Source of the DNA: a virus
IMG/VR virus record: IMGVR_UViG_3300026518_000034
Coordinates: 1 to 34,256 of that record
Length of the DNA stretch: 34,256 nt
Strand: one strand, 5' to 3'
The position numbers were made by a program, and so were the translations under genes. Shown here one piece after another: positions 2,133 through 33,801 of this stretch. Under the pieces are notes generated by a model. That model was not told the origin of the DNA. It searched no databases and was given only the letters and a program-made list of their open reading frames with translations. Within the stretch, counting starts at the first letter, position 1. Every line of letters starts with the position of its first letter.

Positions 2133-2321
2133 ATGAAAAAATATGAAGTAAAATTAGAAGAAACTGAAATCACAATAATTGAGATATATGCAGAAGATAA
2201 AGAAGATGCATATGACAAAGCTATTGAAATGTGGAAAAATGCAGATTTTTCAAGCGCATTATCAGTTGTTAATGCATCATTAGATAATGATATAAACATA
2301 GAAGTAATCAATGAACTCTGA
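2133..2321 (+). CDS. DpnD/PcfM-like small protein
   Basis: The product has 62 residues. The N-terminal pattern YEVKLEETEITIIEIYAEDK followed by EDAYDKAIEMW matches the short DpnD-PcfM domain, a beta-strand plus helix fold seen in phage and plasmid proteins of unknown role. The start follows a GGA-type ribosome site 10 bases after the helicase stop, and the 3' end overlaps the resolvase gene by 11 bases, so the three are probably co-translated. The exact function is unknown. Confidence 0.6.
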   Translation: MKKYEVKLEETEITIIEIYAEDKEDAYDKAIEMWKNADFSSALSVVNASLDNDINIEVINEL

Positions 2322-2895: not shown

Positions 2896-3145
2896 ACAAG
2901 TTGTTGAAAAATATAAATCATTTGATGGTAAGATTTTTGATACTGAGTATGAATGCAAAGTTTACGAAAAACGAGAATTACTAACTAAAGTACATATTGT
3001 TTTCAAAATATCTTGTGGAATAGCTGGAGTATCGAGATGGATGGAAGCTTATTCGACTTATGAAAAAGCATTAGACTCATTAAAAAATGTTGATGAAAAA
3101 AAATATGAAATTAAACAACTATATATAGATGAGATAGAAAGATGA
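2882..3145 (+). CDS. Hypothetical protein
   Basis: The 87-residue protein is not recognised. I chose the ATG at 2882, which overlaps the resolvase end by 14 bases; the frame stays open upstream to an ATG at 2795, but that part lies deep inside the resolvase gene. The C-terminal half is charged and probably helical. Confidence 0.6.
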   Translation: MEIIKQVVEKYKSFDGKIFDTEYECKVYEKRELLTKVHIVFKISCGIAGVSRWMEAYSTYEKALDSLKNVDEKKYEIKQLYIDEIER

Positions 3146-6485: not shown

Positions 6486-6598
6486 TGAAAAATATTTTAA
6501 ATAAATTAAATGCAGAATCTAAATGTACAGTAGGATTCAAAATGTTTATGTATTTTTCTTTTGCAATTATATGGCTAGAATTTCTTAGGATTGCATAA
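6485..6598 (+). CDS. Small single-pass membrane peptide
   Basis: The 37-residue frame has a basic N-terminus and one hydrophobic segment (MFMYFSFAIIWLEFL). It starts and stops in TAATG overlaps, the latter with nrdA. The function is unknown. There is no lysis context that would justify calling it a holin. Confidence 0.5.
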   Translation: MKNILNKLNAESKCTVGFKMFMYFSFAIIWLEFLRIA

Positions 6599-8739: not shown

Positions 8740-8741
8740 AT

Positions 8742-9767
8742 ATGAAACATATAATATCACTAGAAAAAAACACATCAAATAGATTATTTGATCCAAGTTC
8801 AGACGGAGGAGTATTCCTTCGCACTGATAATGTAGAGCATAGGATTCTCAAAGATCTTTGGGAAAAATCAAATGCTCTATTTTGGACAGTCAATATGATT
8901 AATTTTGACAAAGACTCTATCAAGAATATTCCTGAAAATGCTCAGAGAATGTTTAAGTTGAATAACGGGTATCAATCTCTTATGGACTCTGGAGTAGTTG
9001 GCTTATACAATCATCTAGCACTTTTAACATCAAGCAATGAAGTAGCTCTATCATACCAACAAATTGCATTCATGGAGTCAATCCATGCAACTAGCTATTC
9101 AGATGGCTTGCTTCAGATGTTTGATTCTGAAGCTACTGAAATAATTGATGTAGTATATACTGATCCTGTAGTAAAGACACGATTATCATCTGAGATAGAT
9201 TATTCTGATCAGTTAATAGCTGAACCAAACCAGAGAAACACTGCTCTTGCAATAGCAGCTACATATCTTCTTGAGTCAATTAAATTTCCATTTAGTTTCT
9301 TTGTCACTTTCTCAATCAATAAGGCATATAGCAACTGCATTAATGGTTTTGCTCAACTTATATCTCGTATCGCTACAGATGAATTAGAAATTCATGTACC
9401 TACGAATAAATATATTTTGAAAAAGCTTATCAAAGAAGGTGCAATATCAATTACTGAAATTGAGGAAATGGCATTAGAGATTCAATTTCAGGAGAAATCC
9501 TGGAATAGATATCTTCAAGAAGATGGACCAATTCCTGGATACAATATAGCTATTGGTGATGCATTCATTGAATACTTCACAAATAAAACATTACGTGATC
9601 TTGGTTCTAGTATTGAACCAATTAAGCCTAATGATACGATTCAATGGTTCAATCATATTAGAAATCCAGATAACAAGCAGGTGTCTCAGCAAGAAATGAA
9701 ATCATCTCAATACCAAAAAGGTGTTATTAAAGACGACTTATATCTATTTGATAAGGAGAATAAATGA
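8742..9767 (+). CDS. nrdB: Class I ribonucleotide reductase, small (radical) subunit
   Basis: I chose ATG 8742, just after the nrdA stop and behind GGGAG; an ATG at 8727 inside nrdA adds five residues. The 341-residue protein carries the di-metal ligands Asp82, Glu112, His115, Glu178, Glu214 and His218 and the radical tyrosine Tyr119 in ESIHATSY, spaced as in E. coli ExxHxxxY. The last ligand pair reads DELEIH, so Glu214 and His218 are four apart, where E. coli NrdB has three (DEALH). The acidic C-terminus (DDLYLFDKENK) would dock to NrdA. Confidence 0.93.
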   Translation: MKHIISLEKNTSNRLFDPSSDGGVFLRTDNVEHRILKDLWEKSNALFWTVNMINFDKDSIKNIPENAQRMFKLNNGYQSLMDSGVVGLYNHLALLTSSNEVALSYQQIAFMESIHATSYSDGLLQMFDSEATEIIDVVYTDPVVKTRLSSEIDYSDQLIAEPNQRNTALAIAATYLLESIKFPFSFFVTFSINKAYSNCINGFAQLISRIATDELEIHVPTNKYILKKLIKEGAISITEIEEMALEIQFQEKSWNRYLQEDGPIPGYNIAIGDAFIEYFTNKTLRDLGSSIEPIKPNDTIQWFNHIRNPDNKQVSQQEMKSSQYQKGVIKDDLYLFDKENK

Positions 9768-9982: not shown

Positions 9983-10161
9983 CAATACTTGAATATGAGA
10001 AAAAGCTACAGATGATTAGAACATCTGATGCTTCATATGAAATAAAAAGAAAAGCAATTCAAGATCTTGAGAGAAAATTCAATACAAAATCATCTCAAGA
10101 AATTGCAATTAAGCAAATGATTGAGTCAGCACCAGATACAGATGATATAGGAGACAACTAA
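9979..10161 (+). CDS. Hypothetical helical protein
   Basis: The 60-residue product starts with an ATGA overlap and is a charged, probably coiled helix (LEYEKKLQMIR...IKRKAIQDLERKF) with an acidic tail. It resembles no named family that I can support. Confidence 0.55.
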   Translation: MTILEYEKKLQMIRTSDASYEIKRKAIQDLERKFNTKSSQEIAIKQMIESAPDTDDIGDN

Positions 10162-10470
10162 ATGAAAACAAATGATGGAGGAGAAAAACTTCAATCTACT
10201 GATGAAACTCTAAAGCAACGTGGTTCACGGTATGGTTCATTCGCAGAACATGCAAAACTTTCTCAGACACTAAAAGAAGCTATCGAGTATCATATACAAC
10301 ATCATGGACATACGGAGCTAATGACTCCAAGCATGTACGAAGCAATTGGAATGATATGTCATAAACTTGCTAGAATAGCAAATGGAGATCCAACATATGA
10401 CGATTCGTGGAGAGACATTAGTGGTTACTCAGAATTAATTGTTAAGGAATTAAATGGAGAAATTATTTAA
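10162..10470 (+). CDS. DUF6378-like phage protein
   Basis: The 102-residue protein contains QRGSRYGSFAEHAKLSQTLK followed by EAIGMICHKLARIANGDPTYDDSWRD and ISGYSELI. The RYGxF...MICxKLARIxNGDPxYxDSWxDIxGY pattern is widespread in phages and matches a domain of unknown function usually found near nucleotide-metabolism genes, as here beside MazG. The start follows AGGAG. Confidence 0.65.
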   Translation: MKTNDGGEKLQSTDETLKQRGSRYGSFAEHAKLSQTLKEAIEYHIQHHGHTELMTPSMYEAIGMICHKLARIANGDPTYDDSWRDISGYSELIVKELNGEII

Positions 10471-10559
10471 TGTCAGTAGATGAATTAGTTTTAGTAGGTG
10501 TAATATGGAACGCTATATTACAGACAGTTTGGTTCATAAGAACCAAAGATAAACATTAA
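10470..10559 (+). CDS. Small membrane peptide
   Basis: A 29-residue frame starts in a TAATG overlap. It is one hydrophobic segment (LVLVGVIWNAILQTVWFI) with a positively charged end (RTKDKH), giving an N-out topology. The function is unknown. Confidence 0.45.
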   Translation: MSVDELVLVGVIWNAILQTVWFIRTKDKH

Positions 10560-10570
10560 AGGAGTTTATT

Positions 10571-10948
10571 ATCAAATGGAAAGATTCTCTCCGTAAATGG
10601 AGACAGGAACGAGGACTTACAAAACCTCAAGACGACATAAATGAAGAAACTGGAAATCCAGCAATTGTTGATATGCTTCTGGAAGAAGTATATGAATTGA
10701 AAGATGCAATTCTAGAAGGGGATACACATGAAATCATTGATGCATTAGCAGACACAATTGTGTTATCTTCGAACCACATAGGGCAAATGAAATATGATTT
10801 AGATTTAGTAATGAAAGAAGTACTTAAAGAAATTTCATCCAGATGTGGTTCAACTAATCAAGAAACTGGAAAATGGGAGAAAGATAAATCTCAAGATCCA
10901 TCAACTCTTTATAAAGCAAATTATAGAACTTGCAAGGTTAAATCATGA
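10571..10948 (+). CDS. MazG-like nucleotide pyrophosphohydrolase, non-AUG start
   Basis: The core (LLEEVYELKDAILEGD, then EIIDALADTIVL with Glu/Asp metal ligands, and ISSRCG...TGKWEKDKSQDPSTLYKANY) is typical of phage all-alpha MazG-like NTP pyrophosphohydrolases, which hydrolyse (d)NTPs or alarmones. The first in-frame ATG (10673) would remove family-like sequence KWKDSLRKWRQERGL. AAAGGAG at 10558-10564 precedes ATT (10568) and ATC (10571), both in frame; ATC has the better spacing and gives MKWKDSL. The frame opens after a stop at 10550. A sequencing error is the alternative. Confidence 0.75.
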   Translation: MKWKDSLRKWRQERGLTKPQDDINEETGNPAIVDMLLEEVYELKDAILEGDTHEIIDALADTIVLSSNHIGQMKYDLDLVMKEVLKEISSRCGSTNQETGKWEKDKSQDPSTLYKANYRTCKVKS

Positions 10949-11103
10949 CACTGCAAGAAGCTCTAGAAATGCTTAAAAAGCTTAATGAACTCAAATGTAC
11001 CAATGGAAAGAGATATCTTCATATTTCTAAGCTATTGAACTCTGATGCTACAACTCACAACATTCAAGAAGCAAAAAAATTTCTTACTTCAATAGATGGC
11101 TAG
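10945..11103 (+). CDS. Hypothetical protein
   Basis: The 52-residue product starts in an ATGA overlap with the MazG-like gene and is not recognised. It is helical at both ends. It is the last gene of the plus-strand module, and its stop lies inside the convergent hairpin and overlaps the end of the opposing giant gene. Confidence 0.55.
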   Translation: MTLQEALEMLKKLNELKCTNGKRYLHISKLLNSDATTHNIQEAKKFLTSIDG

Positions 11104-11112
11104 TAGCCATCT
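11094..11112. terminator. Bidirectional hairpin at the convergent boundary
   Basis: AGATGGCT and AGCCATCT form a perfect 8-bp stem with a three-base loop. It contains the stop codons of both converging genes. On the minus strand a run of seven T follows about 20 bases later. It probably limits read-through in both directions. Confidence 0.5.
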
Positions 11113-14100
11113 ACTAATTGTGTGATAGGTACATCTACAGAATTTTCGATAAGACCAACTGTATTATTGATCCAATTGAATGGATTCAATCTCCTACTCC
11201 ATGAGCTAAACATTGAACTTTCTAGAGTATCATTAGGTAAATCAAAAAATGTTTTACCAGCAGAATCAGCAATAACTTTAGCAGTATTATTTTTAATCAA
11301 CTTAAGATTTACTCTTTGGATATTAGCAAAATATTTATAGAATGCTTGAGGACCAAGTTTGTCAAGCCACTTCACATATTTACTATTAATGATTTTACTA
11401 TAATTGATAAAATTGTCAGTTACATCTCTTAATGCTTGCTTTTTATCTGTTCCATTCTCTATAGCATACCAATATGTAGCTGCTCTAAAATGCAAATCAC
11501 TTTCTTGGGTTATATTCAATAATGCTTTTCCGAGAGCACTATTTCTTGTAAGAAACATATTATTGACTATATCTTTTATTACTTTATTCTCTCCAATAGC
11601 ACTATCATAAAATTCTCTTTCTATTTTATTTACTATAATATTATTATCTTCTTCAAGATTAACATCTTCTACAATTGTTTGATATAATCCAGCTTCAATA
11701 AGTGGCACTAATGGATTAGATTTTAATTCTACAGTAAGGTCTGCAAGCTCTTTTTCTAATTTAGCTTTTTTAATACCTTCATGCATTTCAATCTTTCTTT
11801 CAAGATCTCTTCTTCTTTTTTCATCTTTCTTCCATTTGTCAAGACTTTTTTTACTTAATATCAAATACTTCAATGCATCAGATATAGGCATTCCACTAAA
11901 GAATAAAAATTTAGCATTACTCAATATATTTCCAATAATTGTTTTTGGAAGTTTTATTACTACCATGCTTTTTGTAATTGCCATTAATGCCATTGCATAT
12001 TGCTCAGCAAGACGAACATATCTTTGTTGTTTTACAGGAAGATTCTTTATGAATTTTATATTAGATATTGATGCTTCATTGTATCCAAATAATTGCTTCA
12101 TTAAATCTTTTCTTATATATATTTCTTTGCGTGGTTCAGGATCTTGATTTCCAGGATTACGTTTTATGTCTTCAAGTCTATTCTTTCGTATAATATACTT
12201 ACGTGTGGCTGGTGGAAGTAACCCCCATAATTCCTCACCTTCTGATTGCACTGAATATCTTCCACTTTCATCTGCTCCAAGCTGTTTTAATTCAGCTTTT
12301 GTTTTCATTGTTTCAGATGCATATACTCTCACAAATTCTTTATCTAGCATATCTTTTGTTGAACCATCTTTATTCATTTTTTTAAGTGTTTCATATTTAT
12401 CTTTATATATTAGATCAATTAGTTCTTCATTATTAGTATCAGTTTCAACTTGAGTATTTTTTCTTCCAAATGTTCTTGATAGTAAATCTGTACCACGTTG
12501 CTCAAGATCTATATATTTTTCTTTATCTTCAAGTGTATTTTCATATCTAAAATCAATTATATTTCCATCAAGATTATACACAGGATACATCTGTTCATTC
12601 TTTCCGTTTCGTGCAGCATACTTAATTGCATCACTAATCTTTTTTCTAAGAGAATTTTCACTTAATGCTGGATTGTCTTGCTTAATTTTTTGACTAAGCA
12701 ATAATCCTTTTACTTGTAATCTCTGGAGGCCAAATGCCCCATCAACTCTACTTGTAATTCCTGCATTATCATTATAATATACTCCATATTTTATTTCTGA
12801 TATATCTGCATCATCTTTGTGCATAGGACCATCTAATTTATATCCAAGATCTTTCATCTTCTTTAATGTATATGCATCAAGTGGAGCATATACTAAATCT
12901 TTATTTGCATCATTTCTCTCATGCAATTCTCCCTTTACCATCTCTTGAACCACGCCATGTAAACCCCAATCATACTTAGATGTCTTGTTCATTCCTTTAG
13001 CAAGTAGTAGAAAACTAGATACTCCATTTGCATCTATATCTATAAGTTCTTTAATATTATTTTTATATTCAGGACTAGTATCTTTTAGTGCATATAAGCT
13101 TATCAATTTATCTATGAGCATAGATGTATCTTCTATGCTGTATGATTTGTCATATGAATTTTCTCCATACGGAATAGAATATCTGGTCCCAAAGTGTCTC
13201 GCAATATTTTCTGCATTACTTCTCAAGCCTTTCTTAGTTCGCATATATTTTGCAACACTCTTCGCATCTTTTATCATAGTGGAACCAATTAGCTTTTCAT
13301 TATAGTTAATATTCATAATATCATTTTCAAGATCTTTGATATCTTTATCTAATTTACTTGGTTCATCTATATAATATTTAAGCACTTCAGCATCAGTACT
13401 TACAGCTTGAAAATCACTTCTTAGAACAACTTTATTTAATGCTTTGTTATACTTTAAATTTTTATTTGAGAATATATCAATCTTTGTAAATCCTACAGCT
13501 ATATCAGCCATAGTTCCTTTTACATACATATCTCTCATTCTATCTAAATGACTCTTGAACATCATTGTTCTATCTGTTATTTCTATAAGTGTTTTTCTCC
13601 CTGAACTAAAATCAGCAATCAAATCTTGAAGGAGTTTATAATATTTACCACCAGCCTCTCTCATTGCAGTATCTAGATTAATTCTGTATTTTATATACTC
13701 ATCTGTATCTTTATCTGATATAGTTGAGTATATTTTAGTGAGAGCTGGAAGTGCTTTTGTAAAGTGCCAAGTTCTATACATTCGGCCTTTAGTTTTATCT
13801 GTAGCTTTTTTCATCTCACCTTGTGCATATTCAAATAATTTATGCAGAGTCTTTTGGTTCTCTATCTCTTGATCTTTTGTAAGCTTTCCGCTTTCTTTTA
13901 CATCTTTAGCTTTTAGGTTTAATTTTTCCAATGAATTGTTCACTACTCCATGAATTAGATCATCAGCTTTATCTGCAGTATTATTCATCCATTCAGAGAA
14001 TTTCTTATCTACTCTAACTCCAGCATTTTCTTTGACTAAATTGGCTTTAGTATAGTTTATTTCTCCAAGCTTGACTGCAAGTCTTGTAAGTTCTGCATCT

Positions 14101-15293
14101 ATATTCTTTCCACGACCACGCTTTACATTTATATTGTGAAGAAAATCTTGTAATGCTTTCATAGCTTTATAGAACAATCTGCTTATAACTGAATCTCCTT
14201 GTTCAGACGAGTTATCATATTTTGTATCTACATTTGCAAGAGCATTTTTTACATATTTATTAGTGAGTCCATATGCAAAGAATTCTTGTATTCGTCTATT
14301 TGCATCTATTACTGTAGAATCATCAATCTTTCCTTCAAATATATATTTATACATATCTTTAGCTTTTTGTATCTCTGCTTCATTATATGGACCTTCATCT
14401 TCAGGAAGAAAATCTTTGTATGTTAATTGCTTTTTAGCTGTTCTATACAGTGTATATAGATCATCTTTTACATCTTGTCCTAGAACGCCAAGTTGTTTAT
14501 TGAATAGTGTACGAATATAAGCATGCACAGTCTCATGGACCAATGCTTCTTCATTACTCATAATAAATCTATTTCTTGCAATTTCAGATATATCTGCAGT
14601 AGCAACTCTTATTTGTCCTGTAACTGGATTAAATTCTCCAACTGGTTCCAGTATATTCTTTGCAATATCTTTTGTTACTGTAATTTTCATGACTGATAAT
14701 TCTTTCACAAGCTTTTGCATCTTTCTACTTAGATTTTGAAGATGAGCACTGTGCTCAGCGTCCCAATGACCATTAGCACTATTTCTGTCTATCTCTGCAA
14801 GCTTATTTTGAACCAAATCAATTCTTTCATTTAATATATCAGATGAACCAATAGCTTCATCCACTGTTTCACCATTTGAATCTACATTGAATAATGATTC
14901 GATATCTTCTTCGTATCTCGGTGTATTAATGATTGCACGTTCAAGGTCACTAGATGTCCTACCATATGACTGAAGACCTTCTGTAGTCTCTTTATATCTG
15001 ATAGGAAGTCCATTCAATAGCTCTATAGTAATTGTTCCATCTTCTGATATATCAATATCTGTTACTATGTCTGAATTAAGGTCAGATGAGCCACTCTCAT
15101 AGTATGTTATAACTCCTGCATTGAGTTTTATTTGCATATTCATAGCTCTATTATGAAGAACTATTGCCTCTCTGGCATATCCATCTAGTTCCTTTGTGTA
15201 ACTAGATTGGTTTGTTTTTTTTAATTCTAATACTACATCTTCAACATCATCATTTGATAGATATATTCCTCTTGCATAATTAGTACATGTCAT
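11100..15293 (-). CDS. Giant virion protein, C-terminal part of the virion RNA polymerase, with zincin motif
   Basis: This 1397-residue protein follows the RNA polymerase gene after three bases, with GGAG eight bases before ATG. HETVH at 253-257 with Glu337 in EFFAYGL has the layout of a zinc metallopeptidase. Around residues 1250-1340 the sequence QESDLHFRAATYWYAIENG followed by NYSKIINSKYVKWLDKLG matches a conserved region of large phage polyvalent proteins. By position and size it corresponds to the C-terminal domain of N4 gp50, needed to package the enzyme. It is probably packed and ejected with the DNA; the peptidase could cut cell-envelope or virion proteins. The function is inferred. 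Confidence 0.65.
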   Translation of the reverse strand: MTCTNYARGIYLSNDDVEDVVLELKKTNQSSYTKELDGYAREAIVLHNRAMNMQIKLNAGVITYYESGSSDLNSDIVTDIDISEDGTITIELLNGLPIRYKETTEGLQSYGRTSSDLERAIINTPRYEEDIESLFNVDSNGETVDEAIGSSDILNERIDLVQNKLAEIDRNSANGHWDAEHSAHLQNLSRKMQKLVKELSVMKITVTKDIAKNILEPVGEFNPVTGQIRVATADISEIARNRFIMSNEEALVHETVHAYIRTLFNKQLGVLGQDVKDDLYTLYRTAKKQLTYKDFLPEDEGPYNEAEIQKAKDMYKYIFEGKIDDSTVIDANRRIQEFFAYGLTNKYVKNALANVDTKYDNSSEQGDSVISRLFYKAMKALQDFLHNINVKRGRGKNIDAELTRLAVKLGEINYTKANLVKENAGVRVDKKFSEWMNNTADKADDLIHGVVNNSLEKLNLKAKDVKESGKLTKDQEIENQKTLHKLFEYAQGEMKKATDKTKGRMYRTWHFTKALPALTKIYSTISDKDTDEYIKYRINLDTAMREAGGKYYKLLQDLIADFSSGRKTLIEITDRTMMFKSHLDRMRDMYVKGTMADIAVGFTKIDIFSNKNLKYNKALNKVVLRSDFQAVSTDAEVLKYYIDEPSKLDKDIKDLENDIMNINYNEKLIGSTMIKDAKSVAKYMRTKKGLRSNAENIARHFGTRYSIPYGENSYDKSYSIEDTSMLIDKLISLYALKDTSPEYKNNIKELIDIDANGVSSFLLLAKGMNKTSKYDWGLHGVVQEMVKGELHERNDANKDLVYAPLDAYTLKKMKDLGYKLDGPMHKDDADISEIKYGVYYNDNAGITSRVDGAFGLQRLQVKGLLLSQKIKQDNPALSENSLRKKISDAIKYAARNGKNEQMYPVYNLDGNIIDFRYENTLEDKEKYIDLEQRGTDLLSRTFGRKNTQVETDTNNEELIDLIYKDKYETLKKMNKDGSTKDMLDKEFVRVYASETMKTKAELKQLGADESGRYSVQSEGEELWGLLPPATRKYIIRKNRLEDIKRNPGNQDPEPRKEIYIRKDLMKQLFGYNEASISNIKFIKNLPVKQQRYVRLAEQYAMALMAITKSMVVIKLPKTIIGNILSNAKFLFFSGMPISDALKYLILSKKSLDKWKKDEKRRRDLERKIEMHEGIKKAKLEKELADLTVELKSNPLVPLIEAGLYQTIVEDVNLEEDNNIIVNKIEREFYDSAIGENKVIKDIVNNMFLTRNSALGKALLNITQESDLHFRAATYWYAIENGTDKKQALRDVTDNFINYSKIINSKYVKWLDKLGPQAFYKYFANIQRVNLKLIKNNTAKVIADSAGKTFFDLPNDTLESSMFSSWSRRLNPFNWINNTVGLIENSVDVPITQLVDGY

Positions 15294-15296
15294 ATG

Positions 15297-18200
15297 TTAT
15301 TCTCCACAATGCTTGTCTACAGTTTTTTTATCTGCGACTTTCTTTGTTGCTATTTTAGCATCTTTTTTGATATTAGTGCTTAAGTCCTTTGTAATTATAG
15401 TCTTAATAATTTTGTTAATATCATCAGTAGGCGTAATCTTTTTCTCATATTTACTTTGTTCATTATCATCATAGTTCGGATTATATTCGTATTTAGCAGA
15501 AACAGTATTTCCATCTCCATCCAACACCTCAGCATATGCATGTTGCACATTTAGTTTCTTGGAAAATATTTCAGCTCTATTATTCTCGGACAATATTTCA
15601 ACTTCATGCAATTGTTTTAGGTGTTGAGTGATAGCCTCAAGATAATCATAATTTTCTTTATTGTGCACAATTGACAGCACATCAAGATCGCCTGATGTAA
15701 TTTCTTTTGATTTCATTGTTCTTATGAAAGATTGCATTGTCTCATGAACCAAATGATAATCTTTGTTTAACTCAAGCCATTGCTTGTTGTATTCTCTGGT
15801 TCCGTCTATTACATCATCTATATTGAAGTAGTTTGCATCGTGCACTCCAAGTGCAATATATTTACTTAATACTTTTGCTTGTATACTTCCATCGAAGTAG
15901 TGAATTGGAACCACTGCGCCAGAGCTATACGCTTCGATAAGTTTATACACTTCCATTTGTGAGTGATCCATTGTTTTATTCTTGAGTCTCAGTCCAGGAC
16001 TTGCAACATTTCCAAGTAGCTCAACATCTCCATCTCTACCAGATGCTTTTAGTTTTTTTGCTATCAAGAGTCGAGACTTAATTCCTTCATCTGTGTCGAG
16101 AACACTATTTAGTACTGGGAATACATCAGATAGATCCTGAATCATATCAGTCATTTCTTTTTCTGTTATTGGAGCCACAAGTCTTTTAGCTTGCTCTTTA
16201 GTACTTCCACTTTCTTCCATCAGGTCTTTGACTTTTTTTTCATAAGCTTCACGTATTTTTCTATCAAGAACATTCTTGGCCAGTCTGAATTGGAATGTAA
16301 ATATCTCATTCATATTTTCTGTGAGAGCAATAAATGGTTTATATTTATCAGACAGTACTTTTTCAAGCACAACACCAAATGCATTTTTATTTTTTTTGCT
16401 AGGAATTATGTATCCATTTAATTTGTTTAATTCATTTTGGTGAAGACGAAAATCTTTTGTTTTAGTGAATATTCTGCCATAGTCTTGGTTCCCAATTGCA
16501 ACTCCTATGTCTTCAAGTTCTTTGCGAAGCTCTGAACCACGTTGCTTTAATGCTTCAGATTCACTAGTTCCTTTCTTTGCTTTTGCATATTGATTTTTAA
16601 CACTATAGTATTCATTGACTTTTGAATAGAATTCATTCTCTGCAATTCTAGCTGTAGATTTCACGATTGATCTGATAGAACTTCCATAGTTTAACACCAT
16701 GAATGGGTTCTTCATGAAATTTCTACTTATCTTTATGATCTTTTCGCCATCCATCTTTATCTTCGGATCAATCAGTTTTAATATTGCAGATGGAACTTTT
16801 ACTCCAGAAGCATTAAGCGCATTAGTTAGTTCTTTAGCTGGTTCCTCATATGAATCTTCATTTCCGTCTTCAACTCGTTTACCATAGCTTGATTTATCAT
16901 TGGTAAATACTCCAACTTTTTCAAGTTCTGCTATTTGAGCATCAGTATCTTTCCCGTACAGAATAGGTGCTTGCATATTTTTAATACCATATCCTGATGT
17001 AATAGCATCTGTCTCAAGCATAATTCCTGTTTTGAATTTAAGTCCATGTGCTGCTGCATAGTTATATCTTAGAAGCTCGACAAGTCCACTTATAGCATGT
17101 TCAGGTTCTCCAAACATGCCACCATGGTTTTTTATTGCATATTGGACCAAGCCTTTCAAATCTTTCTTGAATTGAGGACTATCTTCATATTGTGATACTG
17201 TTTCATATTCAAGCTCAGCCATAGCATTACCATCATATCCATTACTTAAGTCATTGATTGTTTTCTCTATAATACTATCTTTTCCATCGAGCAATGTTTT
17301 TGCTGTTTTCTTATCTACTGGTAAATCAAATGCTTGTCCTAGCATGAGTTTAAATAGTTTATGAGTAGTATCATCCTCAGCATAATTTACGACACTTTCT
17401 CTATTGTATACTGAATATCTATGAAGTTTTTTATCTTGCCAGTTAAGTTTATTGCTATCTATCATAAATCTATTGTTTGTGATCACTTTCCATTTTGCGT
17501 ACATTTCAGTATCACTTCTAAATTCTTGATATGCTTCATCTAGATATTTGATCGAATCAGATATCATGTTATTTTTGCCACGAACTGCATCTTGTGTAGC
17601 TACGATTACATTTGCAGGATCTTTTGCTCCAAGTATTTCTTCGAGTAAGCTTATGTTTCCATTTGAACCAATCTCAGTTTGCAATGTGCTTATTGCGTTG
17701 TAGAATGATTTTCTGAATTTATACGGGGTACTACTTTGTTTGATTATTGCATCTTTATGATCACTACTTACCACATCTCCAATCATTCCACTTATTCCAT
17801 CATTTATTATCTCATTTTTTGACGGAACAGCTAGTTCTTTTGTAGTATACACTCCATGTTTATTGTCAATATTTGCAGCACTGTCATATAATTGAGCAGC
17901 AGATCTTTTGTCAAGCTTTGAGCCAATCTCTAGATGTGCATCTTCATTTGCATCTTTAAATTTTGATTTTTTTGTGAAGTTGATTATCTTTGCAATATTT
18001 TTTTCATCATCTTTTATGGCTATATCAGCTTCGCCTATTTTTAAATATCCATCATTCTCAAGTGATCTGATTGCTAGAAGTCCAAGCTCAGTCTTGAGTT
18101 TTGCTTCAAGCATTTTAGTGTTGACTGCATCATTTCCTTTAGACGCTTTTATTCCAAGAAGTTTATATGCCTTGGTCCCTATCATACTTACAGCACTTGC

Positions 18201-18755
18201 GTATGTTGAATCAACTTTTGAAATCTTATCTCTCATACTTTTAGTTATTATAGTTTTTTTATCTAAGCCAAGCATGTTTCTAATATCATCATTTGATCTA
18301 TGCTCAGGCAAAGTTGGTTCAGCGATTGTGGCAAGCCAATCATTAGTAGCTATAGCAATAGCTTTTGCAATATTCTTGTTTATTGTATATCCTGGGCTAT
18401 TCTCATTTCTTTTATATGCTAATGCAATTATACTTTGAAATCCTTCGTGGACACCAATATTTTGAAATGTAGGATTAATAAGCATAAGGTCAGTTTCTTT
18501 CGATACTACTGCAGAGCTTTTCACAAATTTTTGTACAGCATTTCCTATTGTTCGAACAACATTATTTCCAGATATATCAATTTCTGCAAGTTTTGTATTG
18601 CTCTTTGTATTTGGTTTGAAATATGTTGATAGATCAAGTTTTTCAAATTCTTTATACATTATTCCAAGTATTCCCGGAATTCCTTTTTCATCTCGATTTA
18701 GATATAGCTCTTTGATTACTAATGGCAAATGTTGTTCTAGTATTTCACAACTCAT
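15297..18755 (-). CDS. N4-type virion RNA polymerase, catalytic polypeptide
   Basis: This 1152-residue protein is a T7/N4 single-subunit RNA polymerase. Motif T holds Arg429 in NNRFMIDSNKLNWQDKKLHR, as in N4-like enzymes. Motif A is Asp583 in ETDAITSG, with Gly five residues on as in T7 D537/G542. Motif B is RNFMKNPFMVLNYG, with Arg678, Lys682 and Tyr690-Gly691 spaced exactly as T7 R627, K631 and Y639-G640. Motif C is His972-Asp973 in VHDAN. The length is close to the catalytic core of N4 vRNAP (about 1,100). It would enter the cell with the DNA and transcribe early genes. Its ATG overlaps the previous stop as TAATG, behind AGGA. Confidence 0.9.
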   Translation of the reverse strand: MSCEILEQHLPLVIKELYLNRDEKGIPGILGIMYKEFEKLDLSTYFKPNTKSNTKLAEIDISGNNVVRTIGNAVQKFVKSSAVVSKETDLMLINPTFQNIGVHEGFQSIIALAYKRNENSPGYTINKNIAKAIAIATNDWLATIAEPTLPEHRSNDDIRNMLGLDKKTIITKSMRDKISKVDSTYASAVSMIGTKAYKLLGIKASKGNDAVNTKMLEAKLKTELGLLAIRSLENDGYLKIGEADIAIKDDEKNIAKIINFTKKSKFKDANEDAHLEIGSKLDKRSAAQLYDSAANIDNKHGVYTTKELAVPSKNEIINDGISGMIGDVVSSDHKDAIIKQSSTPYKFRKSFYNAISTLQTEIGSNGNISLLEEILGAKDPANVIVATQDAVRGKNNMISDSIKYLDEAYQEFRSDTEMYAKWKVITNNRFMIDSNKLNWQDKKLHRYSVYNRESVVNYAEDDTTHKLFKLMLGQAFDLPVDKKTAKTLLDGKDSIIEKTINDLSNGYDGNAMAELEYETVSQYEDSPQFKKDLKGLVQYAIKNHGGMFGEPEHAISGLVELLRYNYAAAHGLKFKTGIMLETDAITSGYGIKNMQAPILYGKDTDAQIAELEKVGVFTNDKSSYGKRVEDGNEDSYEEPAKELTNALNASGVKVPSAILKLIDPKIKMDGEKIIKISRNFMKNPFMVLNYGSSIRSIVKSTARIAENEFYSKVNEYYSVKNQYAKAKKGTSESEALKQRGSELRKELEDIGVAIGNQDYGRIFTKTKDFRLHQNELNKLNGYIIPSKKNKNAFGVVLEKVLSDKYKPFIALTENMNEIFTFQFRLAKNVLDRKIREAYEKKVKDLMEESGSTKEQAKRLVAPITEKEMTDMIQDLSDVFPVLNSVLDTDEGIKSRLLIAKKLKASGRDGDVELLGNVASPGLRLKNKTMDHSQMEVYKLIEAYSSGAVVPIHYFDGSIQAKVLSKYIALGVHDANYFNIDDVIDGTREYNKQWLELNKDYHLVHETMQSFIRTMKSKEITSGDLDVLSIVHNKENYDYLEAITQHLKQLHEVEILSENNRAEIFSKKLNVQHAYAEVLDGDGNTVSAKYEYNPNYDDNEQSKYEKKITPTDDINKIIKTIITKDLSTNIKKDAKIATKKVADKKTVDKHCGE

Positions 18756-21700
18756 TATTCACATCCTATTATTTTTTTGATAGACTCTTTTAATGAGTCG
18801 CTTAATTTTTTATCCAGCAAGAATGTTGCTAATGCTTTTCCATTGTACTTATTCTTGGAACCAAGCACATTGCTTGCAGTTTCAGTAACTTCATTTTTGA
18901 CAAGCTTATCAGTTTCTTGCTTTAATTCATCTTTTAGCTTAGCATTTTTTTCTTTTAGTGATTCAGTTTTATCTGATTTTGCTTTTATGTTCTTGAGATC
19001 TCTTTTTATATACTCTTTCTCAGTATTAGGTAGGTTGTCATACTTTTCTTGAATTGTTTCTCCAGGTTTTACTTTCTTCTTGCCTTTGAGTACAACTTTT
19101 ACTCCCTCTCCTTTATTCATTTTTCTAGTAAGTTGTCTTCGCTCATTTGTATCTGATATTTCATATTCATATTTATATGCTGCTATTCTTCTTTCTAGAT
19201 GCTGCCAAGCTTTTTTTAGTAGTCTTGGTATCTCTTTTGAGTTTATATCTTTTTCAAGTTGCTCAATCTCTTTGTTGTTTTCAATGATCTCTGTTCTTAG
19301 ATCACTTACTTTTTTTAATACTTTGAGCAACGCACTAGACTTATCTAATTCATTTTTATTATATTTTGAGTATACATAATCTATTGCTTCTTTGAATTTA
19401 TCAGATCCATTGCCATATAGTTCTTTCACGAATTTTTCTATTCCATCAATATCTTCTTTGGAACCAAGTCGATCTATCTCTTTTGTTATTTCACTTTCTT
19501 GCTTTGGTTCAGATCTTGTGCTCTCTTCACTTTTTTCATTTGTTTTATCAGCTCTTCCGATTCCATCTTCTGTTTGCTCAGCTTCAGCAGTTCTTGTTTT
19601 AGTTTCTTCATCTTTTGTCTCCTGTTTTTTTTGTATTTGAATTTCTCCATCTTTGACTCTTGAGTATTCATTGTTAGGAAATCCTCTTGACTCTTGTTCA
19701 TATTCATTGAACTCATCTTTAGGTTTTGCTTTTTCTTTTGTATTTGTTTTAGCTACAGCAGGCTTGCTTTCAGCAGCTTGTTGTTCAGTAGGATTTATTT
19801 CTTCATTGTTATCACTTGGGATATCTATTTTAGATAGATTAAGTGGTGGTTCTTCAGTAGTAGTATCATTTGTAAATTCAGTATCTACATTTGTACTACT
19901 ATCAATTGGTTCACCTTTTATCATTGAATATAGCTTATCTATTAGCTTCTGCTCATTTTCAGCTTGAGTGATGATTCCATTTGATTGTGGTCCATGATAT
20001 ATGAATTTCTTTGAACCAAATTCATCATTACCATATTCTACTTCTACTGGGCGTTTGTCTTTATTATATTCATACTGTTTCTTGGCATTTTGCATTAGAG
20101 CAAGTTTTCTTCGCTGAGTTGCTACAAAGTTGTCAAGGCTTTTTTCTAGTGGTTCACGATACTTTGCATCTATACTTGGATTGAGTAATCTGTTAGCATA
20201 GTACATTATTCCAGTTCTGACTCTTCCGCCTTTCCCGACTCCACCCCATATCTTCTGAGTAAGCACATCGTTCATTTTGATACTTTGACCATCTGGAACC
20301 ACAGCTCCATGTTCATTAGCACCAGAAGTGTATGTATTCTCGGCTATAAGCTTTTCCATCTCAAGTAGTTTTTTGCGTGGTTCAAGCTGTTTACGCTCTG
20401 CATCATCAGATTTTGACATCTCATTTTCTACTTCTTGCAAGTCTTTATTTATATCATCAATAGGTCTATTATTAAGTTTCTGATTGTAATCTCCAGCTAC
20501 AACATTTCTTATTGCGTCTAGTTGAACGAACTGTTTCCCAAGCTCATCTCTTGATGCAACTAGATTTTGGTATTCTTCATCAAGCTTCCCAGAAGATTCT
20601 TTTTCTTTTATTGTATTATCTATATCAAGTATCTTATTAGCGACCTCATCTATCTGGGCACTATATACATTGTTTGCATGTTTCTTTTCTTCATCTGAAA
20701 GTACTGGCTCTTTTCCATTTTGCATATTAATTATATGCTCTTTGAGTTTTCCAGACATTGCAAGATCGTTGAATACTTGTACGCTATTCTTTAATTCATC
20801 AATAGATTTCTCACTATCAGATTTCTCAGGTGTTAATTTATTTGAATCCACCTCTGACAATCCAGGAGCAGTTACTTCTTCAGTATTTTTGGAACCAAGA
20901 TTGATATTGCCAATCTCATGCATAGTTTGAGTTGCGCCGGCAATATGTCCACCAGCAATTCCTTCTATTCCAGATACTTTAGCGTCAAGTTGGTTCTGGG
21001 CATTTGAGATAATACTTTTAATATCATCACCTTTTTTTCCAGTGCTAATTTGTTTTCCAAGTATATCGGCCCATTGTTGTAGATATTCCTCAGTTCCTTC
21101 TACTGCTGCACCTTTTCCTGAAGCGGATGCAATCCTTCCAGCAGTTTTTAGCACAGATTGCCATAATTTATCAGTTTCTTTCTTTCCAAGTACTGACACT
21201 GAATCCTTAAGCGCAGCATGAATAGCTGGCTTCATAATTATTTTTGCACTCTCAAGTCCTATATATGTTTGTGCAGCAGCAGATGGTACAGCTATTGAAA
21301 TATCTTTTAGTCCAGCATGTTTTTGGTTCTCAGCTTCATTTCTTGATGCAAGCGTGTCATTTACCATTCCAGTGAACATTGCTGTAGCTCCAGCTCTTTC
21401 AATTCCTTTCATTAGTACTTTTTGAGCTAGGTTCATTCTTTTGCTTGCGATATCTGCGTATTTTTTAGCTTGAGAAGCCTTCCCTGCTTTTAGCAGTTCT
21501 GCAGCTTTTTCATATGTTTTTGCAATCTTGCTTCCGTTCTTTACTGCAAACAATCCTGCTTTAATTTCTCCAGCTCCGAACATAAATGTCATTACGCTTC
21601 CAACTACATTTCCTACTATGTTTCCACTTGTTACAACTTTATATGCAGCTTTACCATAGTCTCCATTTTCAATATCTTTTTCAATATTTTTTTGCTCTTT

Positions 21701-22840
21701 TGCGGTTTTATCCTGGTCTACATTGAATAGTGTATCTGACATCTTTCCAATATTTTCTGTAGTATAATATTCTTTTGTATCATTCCATCCATCTCCTCCG
21801 AGATAGCTTGCAACTGCATTCATCTTGAAGCTATGATTTATAGCATCTTTTTTATCTGCTTCAAGTTGTTTCTTTTCTTCAGGAGTTTTAGCTTGTCCTA
21901 TCTTGTAGTTATAATATGCTTCCTCACCTTTTCCTATAAGCCAATCAGGAACATCATTAAATATTGCATCTATTGCCTGACCAGTGGTTCCGACAATACT
22001 ACTTCCAGCACCCTTTGCAACAGCCTCAGCAAAGTTATCGCCATTTGTTTTTTCGAATGCTTTTGATATGTCAGCAGCATCTTCAGATGTTAGCATATTC
22101 TGCTGACCTCCATTCTGGATACCATTAAGAACTGCTTTAGCTTTGTTTGAATTTACATTTGTTTCAGGATTTATAGCTGACTCTATAGTTACTGGCTTTC
22201 CATCTGCGCTTGCATATGACATAAGCTCTCTACCATATGAGTCTGGTTGGTTCCAGTCTTTACTTTTAATTGTAATATTTAGTGGATCTTTTTCAATAAC
22301 ACCTTTGTCATTCATATATGAACCAGTGAGATTAGTTGGCTCAATATTTCTAATTAAAGGTGCTTTCCATCCAGATTCATTTCCTGCAAGGTCTGCAGCT
22401 TTTTGTATCATTTGCTGATTTCCGACATCTATCATATCTTGAGTTGTCAAATCATTTACATTCTTTCCGAGTGCGTTAGCTACATATTGCAATTGACCAG
22501 ATTTATTTTTGTTGCTTTTAACATATGCAAGTGGATCTGAGTATATTGGATTGTTATTGCTATCATATCCTGTGATATGAGCAGTCTCTACAGCATCGTA
22601 GGCATATGCATTTGGAGCTAGCACTTCCCTAGAGGATTTTCCGTTAAGGCTCTTTGTGTATTCAGTATCTGCATCTTGCATTCCAAGAAGTGTGTCATTT
22701 TTATATCCACCAAGGACATCTAGTTTTTGTTGTGATCTTTGTTGAAGTGCATTAGCTTTGTTTTCAACAGCAGACTTTGAACCAAATGCATTGATTTCAT
22801 CTGATAGATATTTTGAAGGGTCTCTTAGATATTGAGGCAT
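18755..22840 (-). CDS. Giant virion protein, N-terminal part of the virion RNA polymerase
   Basis: The 1361-residue protein directly precedes the polymerase gene. The N-terminal 300 residues are Asn/Gln/Ser-rich. A hydrophobic stretch at 406-433 (GNIVGNVVGSVMTFMFGAG) and a further non-polar helical region to about 600, ending GTEEYLQQWADI, could contact the membrane. About 720-1130 is polar and disordered, and the last 200 residues are a Lys/Glu coiled coil. It matches in place and size the N-terminal domain of N4 gp50, thought to help injection. No enzyme motif is seen. It starts after AAGGA in AAGGAACCACAATATG, downstream of an extended -10 promoter. Confidence 0.6.
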   Translation of the reverse strand: MPQYLRDPSKYLSDEINAFGSKSAVENKANALQQRSQQKLDVLGGYKNDTLLGMQDADTEYTKSLNGKSSREVLAPNAYAYDAVETAHITGYDSNNNPIYSDPLAYVKSNKNKSGQLQYVANALGKNVNDLTTQDMIDVGNQQMIQKAADLAGNESGWKAPLIRNIEPTNLTGSYMNDKGVIEKDPLNITIKSKDWNQPDSYGRELMSYASADGKPVTIESAINPETNVNSNKAKAVLNGIQNGGQQNMLTSEDAADISKAFEKTNGDNFAEAVAKGAGSSIVGTTGQAIDAIFNDVPDWLIGKGEEAYYNYKIGQAKTPEEKKQLEADKKDAINHSFKMNAVASYLGGDGWNDTKEYYTTENIGKMSDTLFNVDQDKTAKEQKNIEKDIENGDYGKAAYKVVTSGNIVGNVVGSVMTFMFGAGEIKAGLFAVKNGSKIAKTYEKAAELLKAGKASQAKKYADIASKRMNLAQKVLMKGIERAGATAMFTGMVNDTLASRNEAENQKHAGLKDISIAVPSAAAQTYIGLESAKIIMKPAIHAALKDSVSVLGKKETDKLWQSVLKTAGRIASASGKGAAVEGTEEYLQQWADILGKQISTGKKGDDIKSIISNAQNQLDAKVSGIEGIAGGHIAGATQTMHEIGNINLGSKNTEEVTAPGLSEVDSNKLTPEKSDSEKSIDELKNSVQVFNDLAMSGKLKEHIINMQNGKEPVLSDEEKKHANNVYSAQIDEVANKILDIDNTIKEKESSGKLDEEYQNLVASRDELGKQFVQLDAIRNVVAGDYNQKLNNRPIDDINKDLQEVENEMSKSDDAERKQLEPRKKLLEMEKLIAENTYTSGANEHGAVVPDGQSIKMNDVLTQKIWGGVGKGGRVRTGIMYYANRLLNPSIDAKYREPLEKSLDNFVATQRRKLALMQNAKKQYEYNKDKRPVEVEYGNDEFGSKKFIYHGPQSNGIITQAENEQKLIDKLYSMIKGEPIDSSTNVDTEFTNDTTTEEPPLNLSKIDIPSDNNEEINPTEQQAAESKPAVAKTNTKEKAKPKDEFNEYEQESRGFPNNEYSRVKDGEIQIQKKQETKDEETKTRTAEAEQTEDGIGRADKTNEKSEESTRSEPKQESEITKEIDRLGSKEDIDGIEKFVKELYGNGSDKFKEAIDYVYSKYNKNELDKSSALLKVLKKVSDLRTEIIENNKEIEQLEKDINSKEIPRLLKKAWQHLERRIAAYKYEYEISDTNERRQLTRKMNKGEGVKVVLKGKKKVKPGETIQEKYDNLPNTEKEYIKRDLKNIKAKSDKTESLKEKNAKLKDELKQETDKLVKNEVTETASNVLGSKNKYNGKALATFLLDKKLSDSLKESIKKIIGCE

Positions 22841-22900: not shown

Positions 22901-24646
22901 TTATCTATTGATCAGATTTCTAAGTCTATTGCCTCTTGCTGCATTTAGAGCCATTCTTGTTTTATATTCGTCTGAATTTTCATTATGACTACCATAGTTA
23001 TCATATTTTGAGAGAATTGCTTTAACAAGTTCAGGATCATATCCAGATTCAAGCAATGATTTTTCTATATCACCAAGATGATTGGTTCCTTTTCCGTATA
23101 TATTAATGAGCTTATCAGCATCTGCTTGTATGTTTTTCACCTGCTCTTCTTTTTTGTTTTTATTATATGCTTCAGCTCTTTTCATTCTTGCAGCATGCTC
23201 TTCATTTGTTTCAACAAGAGGAGCAATATTTGGATCTGAATTTAGTCTCTCTTGCCTAGCATTAGCTAATGCATCTAACTCATCAAGTGTTGGAGCTTTA
23301 AATTGCTTTGCCGTTTCAGAAGCATCTCTTTCTTTGAGAAGTTTTTTATATTTATCTGTTGCAAGCAATTTATCTACTCTCTTTTTATCAGATGAACCAA
23401 GTTTTGCATATTCTTTTCCAAATGCTACAGGATCTTTTGCAAATAGATTAAATACATCAGGATTGGTTCCAGACTTATTTAATGCTTGTGAGATAGGATT
23501 TAGTACTTCTTTTTTTGGAGAAGTTTTTTTAGTAGTTTTATTGGATGATTGATTATTTCCTGATCCAAGTCGATTAAGTATCTTTTTATAATTATTTCTA
23601 TTTGCAAGTATTTCATCTATCTGGCTAGCTGAGACATAATTAGGCGTCATCAGTGCTATCTGCTTGTCTGTTAGCTTTGGTACAGATGGTTTTAATGATC
23701 TTGCATACCCATTATTTGATCGTAAGTTATTTACAAACTTAACTGCATCGTTTCCCATTTCTTTTGAATCGGGCAAGTCATAGTTATCACCAAAAGTTCC
23801 ATGTCTAAGTTTTGATAATACATATGCTTTTGCTTCATTTGGAGATATCTTTCCACTATTGACAAGGCTTTCTATTGCTTGTTGAGATTTGCTATCATCC
23901 CATTTTAGCATAAAATCTGGAGATGCTATTCCTTTAATGCTTTCATATACTTTTTGTATATCTCCACCGCTGTATGGATATTTTCCTTTTCCAGATGATC
24001 CTGAACCACCTCGGGATGCATTTGATTTATCTATGTCTTTTGCGAGCTTTATTTGATCATATGCATTCTTTGCTCTATCCTTTTCTGCATCGTTATATGA
24101 TTTTACTCTTGCAGCTTCATTTGCAAGTAATTCTTTTTTACTATCAAATCCTTGAGACAGCAATGCTTGAGCTTTTGCAGCATCAGTTGCATCTCCTCCA
24201 GCAGCAAGTATTTTGTTAGACACATATTGGTTAACTTCTTCCTTTGTAGGGTTATATCCATCTGTGTATGCTGCATTGAATATTCTCATCTCTTCTGGAG
24301 TCAATTCTCGTTGCCCATTATTAGTTATTTCATTATACTTTTGAACAACGTCATTGTTCATGTTAAGCAGCACATCTTCAGGTCTAACTGTTTGATTGTC
24401 AAATCCTTTTGCGAGATCAGTTGTAGCATTACGAACACCAAGCTTTCTTTGATATTCATCTTGTTGTTGCCCAAATAGCACATCAGCTCTTGCATCAGCT
24501 TTTGCCTGTCTAGCTTCTTCGACTTTTCTAGCTCTTATTTGATCAGCTTGAGCCATTATTGTTCCGACATTTGATAATGCTTTTTGGGCACCTCTAGTTG
24601 GATCAAGGACTTGACCAATATGCGTATCTAATTTCATCATTGCCAT
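22901..24646 (-). CDS. Internal virion/ejection protein (N4 gp51 position)
   Basis: The 581-residue protein is Lys/Ala/Asn/Asp-rich and largely helical. The N-terminus (IGQVLDPTRGAQKALSNVGTIMAQADQIRAR) continues as a charged coiled coil to about residue 70. Glycine/serine linkers near 210-225 and Lys/Thr-rich linkers near 370-380 separate helical blocks. Position between the polymerase and a small internal protein matches N4 gp51, a virion protein. No enzymatic motif is seen. AAGGA precedes ATG by six bases. Confidence 0.55.
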   Translation of the reverse strand: MAMMKLDTHIGQVLDPTRGAQKALSNVGTIMAQADQIRARKVEEARQAKADARADVLFGQQQDEYQRKLGVRNATTDLAKGFDNQTVRPEDVLLNMNNDVVQKYNEITNNGQRELTPEEMRIFNAAYTDGYNPTKEEVNQYVSNKILAAGGDATDAAKAQALLSQGFDSKKELLANEAARVKSYNDAEKDRAKNAYDQIKLAKDIDKSNASRGGSGSSGKGKYPYSGGDIQKVYESIKGIASPDFMLKWDDSKSQQAIESLVNSGKISPNEAKAYVLSKLRHGTFGDNYDLPDSKEMGNDAVKFVNNLRSNNGYARSLKPSVPKLTDKQIALMTPNYVSASQIDEILANRNNYKKILNRLGSGNNQSSNKTTKKTSPKKEVLNPISQALNKSGTNPDVFNLFAKDPVAFGKEYAKLGSSDKKRVDKLLATDKYKKLLKERDASETAKQFKAPTLDELDALANARQERLNSDPNIAPLVETNEEHAARMKRAEAYNKNKKEEQVKNIQADADKLINIYGKGTNHLGDIEKSLLESGYDPELVKAILSKYDNYGSHNENSDEYKTRMALNAARGNRLRNLINR

Positions 24647-24655
24647 AATGCGTCC

Positions 24656-25141
24656 TTATTGATTGTTCGGATTGAAAATCTGTTGAATATGTTTATTGTC
24701 AGCTATAGTTTTATTATAGTTATAGTCATTTTGCTTGGCTTGTTGATCCATTAGATGTCTTTGTTTGTCTGCAGTTTTCTTGTTATCAAGATAACTAGCA
24801 AGCCCTAAACCAAGTTGTCCGACGCTTAAACCAAATCCGCCCCATCCATCCATGCCCCAGTTAATTGAACTAGTATTTATTGAACCAAGGCTTTTGTCAG
24901 ATATAGGAGATTTAAGATAGTCGTTATTTATCATGCTCTTGTCAAAGGAAGCAGTGCCTGATGAATCAAATGTAAGCCCAGATGAACCAAGCAAACTTTG
25001 TTGCTCTGGAGTCATATTTGATATGCTTTCCATTGTAATATTTGCTGGATTAAACATTGATGCAAATCCTTGTGTTGGAGTATATGCATTAGTGTTGTCA
25101 GTAGTAACAGTACTATTTCCTACTGTATAATTTTTTCCCAT
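24656..25141 (-). CDS. Small internal virion protein (N4 gp52 position)
   Basis: The 161-residue protein has a Thr/Asn/Ser-rich N-terminus, a central Gly-rich amphipathic segment (WGMDGWGGFGLSVGQLGLGLASYL, about 95-118) and a Lys/Gln-rich helix. Such a layout suits a small ejection protein that inserts in membranes, as T7 gp14 does. It corresponds in place to N4 gp52. A promoter with an extended -10 lies just upstream. Confidence 0.5.
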   Translation of the reverse strand: MGKNYTVGNSTVTTDNTNAYTPTQGFASMFNPANITMESISNMTPEQQSLLGSSGLTFDSSGTASFDKSMINNDYLKSPISDKSLGSINTSSINWGMDGWGGFGLSVGQLGLGLASYLDNKKTADKQRHLMDQQAKQNDYNYNKTIADNKHIQQIFNPNNQ

Positions 25142-32616: not shown

Positions 32617-33801
32617 TTACTTAGAAGCACAAGTATAGATAGCAAGTAATTTCTCCTCCTCAAGAATCAATCCCGCATAGAAGAAATTGTATGAGAAGAA
32701 ACCTTGAGTTCCATAAGGGTTAGAAAGTTCAACAGAGCTTGGAGCTTTAGAGTTGAATTTAATTTTACCTTTACCTTTAAGGCCAACAGTACCAAATGCA
32801 CCTTCAGTTGGGAAAAGGATTGCGTGAACATCAAACTTACCAGTAAGGCTGTCACCAGTATATGCTAAAGTTCCAGAGTAAGCAGTAGTTCCATCACTTA
32901 CTGTTGCACCAGCACCAGCATATACTACAGCAGCTTCAGACTCGATGAATCTTACTTCGTGCATTGCACCAACTTCACCTTCAGCAAGGCTTGCAGCACC
33001 AGCATATTTATGAGCAGGAACATATACGTACTCAGTTTCAGCACCTGTACCACGAGTTAAGTTCTCAAGGTCAGATTTGACATCTGCATCTACGATTGCA
33101 TAGAATGCTTTTGCGATTGGTTGTGTACCAATTTTAGTTGAACCAGTTACGATAGAAGTATTTTTCTTAGCACGGTTACGAACTAGTTTACGAACACCTT
33201 TACGAATCAAGTCGTAAGATACTTTCCAAGCTGCATCGTCAGAACCATCTGCTGCTGCACTAGTACCAATTGTAGCTTTAGAAGTTGCAACACCAGAATA
33301 CATTACTGTACCAGTTCCAAGCATATCTAATTGAATTAGATCTTCAAATCTACTATTTGCAAGCTCACCAAGTTCCTCACGGTAACGCACTTGAATTGCA
33401 TCTTCAGAAAATAACTCTACTTCATCAGTATAGTCAATCATCTCACCATAGCGTGCAAGAGTTGCTTCTACTGTTACTTTTTGGAGTGAACGCTTATTTA
33501 CAGCTCCAGCACCCTCAGCAAGTTGTGCATTAGTTAGTGAAGTTGAGACTTCATCAGCAGTACGAGCAGTCATGTATCCTTTTGCTGCAAAATCAGCATC
33601 ACCAGTAGTGCGGTCATACATATGTAAGAATTTACTTACCTTATAAGTTTTACCCATTTTTGTAGGCATTGATTTTCTAGAAGAAAACTGTCCATACACA
33701 TTTACTCTGTTTGCTGCTTTAATACCAGCTCTGTCATAATAATGTGTGATTGTATTTGCGCCTGCAGTACTGTTAGTACCATCTCCGTATACGTTTGCCA
33801 T
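32617..33801 (-). CDS. Major capsid protein, N4-gp56 family
   Basis: The 394-residue protein is near the length of the N4 capsid protein (about 400). The N-terminus (ANVYGDGTNSTAGANTITHYYDRAGIKAAN) is followed by PTKMGKTYKVSKFLHMYD, a domain of the N4-gp56 major capsid family (HK97 fold). The middle holds EATLARYGEMIDYTDEVELF and DLIQLDMLGTGTVMYSG. AAGGA lies eight bases upstream of ATG. Base use is more GC-rich (GCA, GGT, CGT codons) than in its neighbours, as expected for a strongly expressed gene. Confidence 0.9.
   Translation of the reverse strand: MANVYGDGTNSTAGANTITHYYDRAGIKAANRVNVYGQFSSRKSMPTKMGKTYKVSKFLHMYDRTTGDADFAAKGYMTARTADEVSTSLTNAQLAEGAGAVNKRSLQKVTVEATLARYGEMIDYTDEVELFSEDAIQVRYREELGELANSRFEDLIQLDMLGTGTVMYSGVATSKATIGTSAAADGSDDAAWKVSYDLIRKGVRKLVRNRAKKNTSIVTGSTKIGTQPIAKAFYAIVDADVKSDLENLTRGTGAETEYVYVPAHKYAGAASLAEGEVGAMHEVRFIESEAAVVYAGAGATVSDGTTAYSGTLAYTGDSLTGKFDVHAILFPTEGAFGTVGLKGKGKIKFNSKAPSSVELSNPYGTQGFFSYNFFYAGLILEEEKLLAIYTCASK

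Follow-up and report, generated by a model that had tools for sequence, protein, structure and literature searches.

Cysteines at the facing ends of a virion RNA polymerase divided among three genes

IMG/VR record IMGVR_UViG_3300026518_000034 is a linear fragment of viral DNA of 34,256 bases (the window), in which an N4-type virion RNA polymerase (vRNAP) is encoded by three abutting open reading frames (ORFs) on the minus strand, here called A, B and C. Of the 3910 residues in their products only four are cysteines; these occupy the four ends that face a break, one apiece, and the two free ends contain none. Sequence comparison establishes the cuts, the identities of the domains and the placement of cysteine at the breaks in many genomes, and it finds the pattern repeated in the giant virion RNA polymerase (RNAP) proteins of crass-like phages. 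We consider it quite likely that the pieces are linked head to tail again by interchain disulfides, so that the enzyme can be packaged and injected as one thread, and that these bonds are reduced in the host.

Three chains of an N4-type enzyme

Gene A (18755..22840, 1361 aa) encodes the N-terminal (injection) domain, with its sole cysteine at residue 1360; gene B (15297..18755, 1152 aa) encodes a complete T7-type catalytic domain, with cysteines only at residues 3 and 1150; and gene C (11100..15293, 1397 aa) encodes the C-terminal domain, comprising C1, with a zincin-like HExxH motif, and C2, with its sole cysteine at residue 3. At the A/B junction (18753..18767) the stop and start codons share one base in the sequence TAATG, with an AGGA ribosome site 8 bases upstream; at the B/C junction (15291..15305) a GGAG ribosome site and the stop codon are followed by a 3-base gap and ATG. 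The codons for Cys1360 of A (18761..18763) and Cys3 of B (18747..18749) lie toward the A/B junction, and those for Cys1150 of B (15306..15308) and Cys3 of C (15285..15287) toward the B/C junction; all of these features are on the minus strand. The original prediction, made from the letters of the window alone, had proposed three consecutive genes of these lengths with a start codon and a ribosome site at both junctions, and the ORF coordinates and junction sequences confirm it.

The PHROGs vRNAP profile phrog_2206 (3406 positions) is matched by B over positions 1025–1959 (E 6e-84) and by C over positions 2273–3010 and a second stretch (E 3e-122); A has no match to this or other PHROGs profiles, and neither Pfam nor direct sequence searches of the PDB were informative. 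When B is aligned with N4 and other vRNAPs, its Arg429, Asp583, Arg678, Lys682, Tyr690 and Asp973 fall on R424, D559, R666, K670, Y678 and D951 of N4 mini-vRNAP; all six are identical and are invariant among relatives, in agreement with the claim that the middle gene alone carries all of the named catalytic residues. Structure prediction, which had been proposed as a check along with the profile search, gives the same identity: an AlphaFold model of B (pLDDT 72) has N4 mini-vRNAP (3c3l) as its best Foldseek match (E 1.7e-26), and its top 10 PDB matches are all N4 vRNAP (E 1.7e-26 to 2.6e-21, probability 1.00). A model of C residues 1–480 (pLDDT 57) was not used. Relationship to the N4 domains extends to the flanking proteins, for C by sequence and for A through relatives in which A and B are fused: A is 41% identical to residues 1–979 of the fused protein in locus L020 (loci are designated L plus a number) and 38% to the N-terminal part of that in L013, and a profile of A with its fused relatives matches the N4 N-terminal domain (NTD) with an hhalign probability of 96% over 112 columns.

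By alignment B extends over approximately residues 950–2130 of N4 gp50, in which cryo-EM has located flexible linkers at residues 907–1006 and 2102–2123 (PMC12633501); both cuts therefore lie at or beside natural interdomain linkers. Residues 1–54 and 1123–1152 of B, the ends that hold its cysteines, are predicted to be disordered (pLDDT <50 in the AlphaFold model). As read from the genes, A, B and C are an N4-type vRNAP cut at two interdomain linkers, which would be packaged in the virion and injected. The HExxH motif of C is at residue 253 (14523..14537, minus strand) and is invariant in most relatives; the C1 subdomain of N4 has one too (PMC12633501). A second HExxH is found between RNAP and C1 in several relatives (L012 8511–9593, L026 8450–9574 and the B proteins of L001 and L011), as if a zincin-like module had been duplicated or were borne on a link of its own. 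Residues 1003–1018 of B (VHETMQSFIRTM) resemble the HExxH region of C, but the stretch comes after motif C and is reminiscent of a helix in T7 RNAP; the resemblance was taken as chance.

That a sequencing or assembly error, or a decaying pseudogene, broke a single reading frame has next to no probability, and for the window it is refuted by L031 (JALWON010000323.1), a contig of a Sulfurimonas sp. metagenome-assembled genome (MAG). This independent assembly is 97.1% identical, ungapped over 3,915 nt, to window positions 12,420–16,334 (minus strand) and retains the same B/C break, so the split is genuine, as originally proposed, and with both flanking proteins related to N4 domains neither of the refuting conditions set at the outset is borne out; the match also suggests a Campylobacterota host, with the limit that a phage contig can be mis-binned. 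The same three-gene layout is found in L001, L002 and L003, which are 25–53% identical; starts, ribosome sites and tails are kept in relatives down to 25% identity, and viral contigs contain relatives divided into two, three or four pieces. In L003 a 62-codon ORF without cysteine (7977–8165) lies between A and B and seems to be outside the chain. An uncut chain of 4252 aa without cysteine, in a Campylobacteraceae MAG contig (L032), lies inside the clade of split enzymes. GenBank treats the split in Alteromonas phage AD45 as a "potential frameshift", and the vRNAP region of that phage (L007, NC_021532.1, 672–12396) consists of two complete genes whose junction ends are capped by cysteines. One break does look like a frameshift: between NTD and RNAP in L069 (8560–8830) the frame is broken with neither an adjacent start codon nor a cysteine, unlike all other breaks, including the others in L069, and it is probably an error and not a natural split. 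An apparent split in Pseudomonas phage PA152 (L055, MZ322319.1) was rejected, as several ORFs there are annotated on the wrong strand and the true frame is open and free of cysteine over the stretch examined.

Cysteine at the breaks of N4-type loci

N4-type vRNAPs are described as having no cysteine, which has been read to mean that disulfides would hinder passage through the tail and periplasm (PMC3715699, PMC3915230). Zero cysteines were confirmed in the vRNAPs of N4, JA-1, PEV2 and pVco-5, and the uncut enzymes of L032, L038, L039, L066 and L074 also have none (L066 and L074 over the stretch covered); uncut L075 has one. A first set of 25 loci included 18 that are split, with 33 breaks, and cysteine was present on both sides of all 33, at 1–7 residues from the C-terminal end and at residues 3–4 of the N-terminal end, and at none of the 50 free ends; 4 internal cysteines were observed versus approximately 648 expected at the background rate (0.66%, taken from the other proteins of the window). 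Seven split loci gathered after the rule had been formulated formed a second set, in which cysteine flanks 11 of 11 breaks. Over all N4-type loci, 44/44 breaks and 88/88 facing ends bear cysteine (at most 7 residues from the C-terminal end, residue 3–6 of the N-terminal end), versus 0/66 free ends, and there are 5 internal cysteines in approximately 131,000 residues. For a few loci the start was set at the ATG just before the cysteine where the longest ORF begins upstream; the longest ORF in these loci still puts the cysteine within the first 18 residues.

The rule tracks the cut wherever the cut falls. Two-piece forms have one pair of cysteines, and extra links, each with a cysteine at both ends, have lengths of 360 aa (L012), 224 aa (L022), 374 aa (L026), 644 aa (L024) and 877 aa, among others. 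Homing endonucleases were considered for the gaps in L012 and L022 and rejected, the gap ORFs being extra chain links of this kind. On a tree of C the state of the break changes at least three times for NTD/RNAP, at least twice for RNAP and the C-terminal domain (CTD) and at least four times for extra breaks; the cysteine state changes with it in every row, and 9 independent contrasts are all concordant.

Translational coupling at the junctions, most of which overlap or abut, might depend on an RNA element that gives rise to the cysteine codons incidentally, and TGT does account for 58 of 66 junction cysteine codons. Yet TGC is used too, the two cysteine codons are 12–199 nt apart and differ in relative frame, and of 71 further closely spaced gene pairs in these loci only 1 has cysteine on both sides. 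An RNA element is thus an extremely improbable cause, and gene orientation in three crass-like genomes refutes it, as described below.

The same pattern in crass-like phages

The virion of phiCrAss001 holds three giant RNAP-associated proteins, gp47, gp50 and gp49, and contains other disulfides (PMC10172136). Its gp47 has one cysteine, third from the end; gp50 has Cys5 and Cys2404 of 2412 residues, plus a cysteine at 1334; and gp49 has Cys5 only. The corresponding proteins of phi14:2 (g067, g066 and g065) have exactly four junction cysteines and no other. A tally of 11 crass-like or related genomes found cysteine at 16/16 breaks and 32/32 facing ends, versus 0/22 free ends, and two further breaks in cr116_1 are consistent if gp051 and gp049 are taken as one interrupted gene. 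At 9998–20863 of cr116_1 (L051, NC_055882.1) the RNAP gene seems to be interrupted by an endonuclease-type ORF (gp051/gp050/gp049). Giant virion RNAP proteins with cysteine at the junction-facing ends, from crass-like phages and Lightbulbvirus, are found in L043, L044, L045, L047 and L052. In phiCrAss001 (where the partner is gp50), DAC15 and cr116_1 the gp47-type gene is on the strand opposite its partner, and a cause of the cysteines at the level of mRNA is thereby excluded.

The cysteines imply a chain order of gp47-gp50-gp49, which agrees with fusions in relatives: matches of gp50 and gp49 lie within one protein in crAss002, and the RNAP region of cr55_1 gp70 and FpV4 gp32 lies behind a long N-terminal part. 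The annotated start of crAss002 gp33 (L046, NC_055828.1) is probably 32 codons too early, and a start at the internal MSC, residue 33, would agree with the rule. Hidden Markov models (HMMs) of A and B had no match to crass-like proteins, and that of C had one weak match, to crAss002 gp32 (E 1e-5). Like the window, phi14:2 and phiCrAss001 have three giant virion proteins with cysteine at the junction-facing ends; unlike it, they have a catalytic subunit of the beta-beta' fusion type, which has no relation to the T7-type fold. To judge from the sequences, the appearance of the same rule in N4-type and crass-like phages despite unrelated polymerase folds is convergence.

The separate detection of the crass-like pieces as virion proteins (PMC10172136) also speaks against the proposal that the chains are ligated post-translationally into one peptide chain, by an intein remnant, trans-splicing or native chemical ligation. 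A junction cysteine is typical of intein and ligation chemistry, and uncut relatives such as L032 show that a single chain is functional. However, the cysteine is at residue 3–6 and not at residue 1, Met-Lys-Cys starts would leave it unexposed, and no intein domain separates the parts, and most of these abut within 0–30 nt; ligation is highly unlikely.

Joining of the chains and its significance

The N-domain of N4 gp50 is assigned to injection and the C-domain to encapsidation (unpublished data cited in PMC4496689), and a cut enzyme with these roles needs its pieces joined or held together. The original prediction left open whether the parts are packaged separately or assembled in the head; the terminal cysteines, which it did not mention, point to covalent end-to-end joining. 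In the proposed mechanism the enzyme would be made as three polypeptides, A for membrane and injection functions, B as the polymerase and C for packaging and regulation, and each cut-facing end would terminate in a short, flexible stretch that carries one cysteine. Facing cysteines would pair as A-S-S-B-S-S-C to give one linear N-to-C thread, with the disulfides forming in the particle or late in assembly; packaging would treat the thread as a unit, its parts would pass through the tail channel in order, and reduction of the bonds in the host cytoplasm would free the polymerase from its neighbors. Cysteines at the extreme ends of the chains would make the joined chain linear and not branched, as threading through a channel of approximately 35 Å, the width reported for the N4 tail (PMC12633501), would need. 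We infer the disulfide nature of the bond, the time of its formation and its role in packaging and injection.

Several points weigh against disulfide joining. The bond itself is deduced from a sequence pattern. Because the cytoplasm is reducing during phage assembly, the disulfides could arise only at a late point, within the capsid or once the cell has lysed, although C is probably needed for packaging. Pairing of A with B rather than A with A would need non-covalent guidance. A few chains retain one internal cysteine (L002 C, L011 C, L023 B, L024 and L075), crass-like polymerases keep several, and raw p-values treat the sequences, which are related, as more independent than they are. The three proteins might instead be packaged separately and associate non-covalently, with the terminal cysteines binding a metal (zinc or iron-sulfur) or forming a thiol clamp at each contact; assembly in a reducing cytoplasm would suit such an association, and the RNAP and CTD of N4, whose interface is weak, have been observed in contact as well as separated (PMC12633501). 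However, each junction offers just two cysteines, the tails have no further conserved residue that could serve as a ligand, the cysteines are predicted to lie in disordered tails and not in a folded interface, and their position within 1–9 residues of the very end is left unexplained. This non-covalent arrangement is unlikely.

The enzyme itself is known. N4 gp50 (Schitoviridae) has the same domain order of NTD, T7-type RNAP and CTD with HExxH, the same catalytic residues and the same place between the early genes and gp51-gp52-...-major head protein. N4-type vRNAPs are characterized as one polypeptide of about 3,000–3,500 residues with no cysteine, and gp50 is a single cysteine-free chain of 3,500 residues, whereas the window has three polypeptides and exactly four cysteines, all at the cut ends. 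The Alteromonas phages AD45-P1 to P4, which are in culture, likewise have an enzyme cut between RNAP and CTD (2495 + 1409 aa), with cysteine only at residue 2493 and residue 4, but it consists of two chains with the NTD still fused to RNAP and is annotated only as a potential frameshift. The L032 vRNAP is 33% identical to C and differs in being uncut. No report of split N4-type vRNAPs or of terminal cysteines was found in open-licence literature, and earlier description elsewhere is possible; the three-way split with terminal cysteines is a variant undescribed in the literature searched. The suggestion that the arrangement would be new if undescribed stands to that extent, and the split is not unique, given the two-gene form in the AD45 phages.

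Gene order around the split enzyme is as in N4: vRNAP, two small ejection-type genes, a plug-type gene and the major head protein. The gp51-like (22901..24646, 581 aa) and gp52-like (24656..25141, 161 aa) ejection proteins have no cysteine and are assigned by position, the former, which has no profile match, as in N4 gp51; the major head protein (32617..33801), at the position of N4 gp56, matches phrog_1357 (E 1.6e-83). All three genes are on the minus strand. The Schitoviridae arrangement of vRNAP beside gp51, gp52, tail plug and gp56-type head genes is thus found by position and by the head-protein profile. Genes for the large and small subunits of ribonucleotide reductase (6598–9767) adjoin the vRNAP, as in the AD45 phages.

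Phage biology has yet to explain how a polymerase of approximately 400 kDa passes through a tail channel of approximately 35 Å and across two membranes. It is reasonably likely that N4-type and crass-like phages share a principle of delivery, in which giant injected enzymes would travel as polypeptide trains coupled end to end by terminal disulfides; the train would pass through the tail as a single chain and come apart once it reaches the reducing environment of the cytoplasm. Such coupling would be a new principle, provided that the bonds are demonstrated. Crass-like phages are the most abundant viruses of the human gut. For these phages too, sequence alone is enough for the cysteine rule to predict how the pieces are ordered and covalently connected, and the rule gives annotators a simple mark by which to tell a natural split from a frameshift error.

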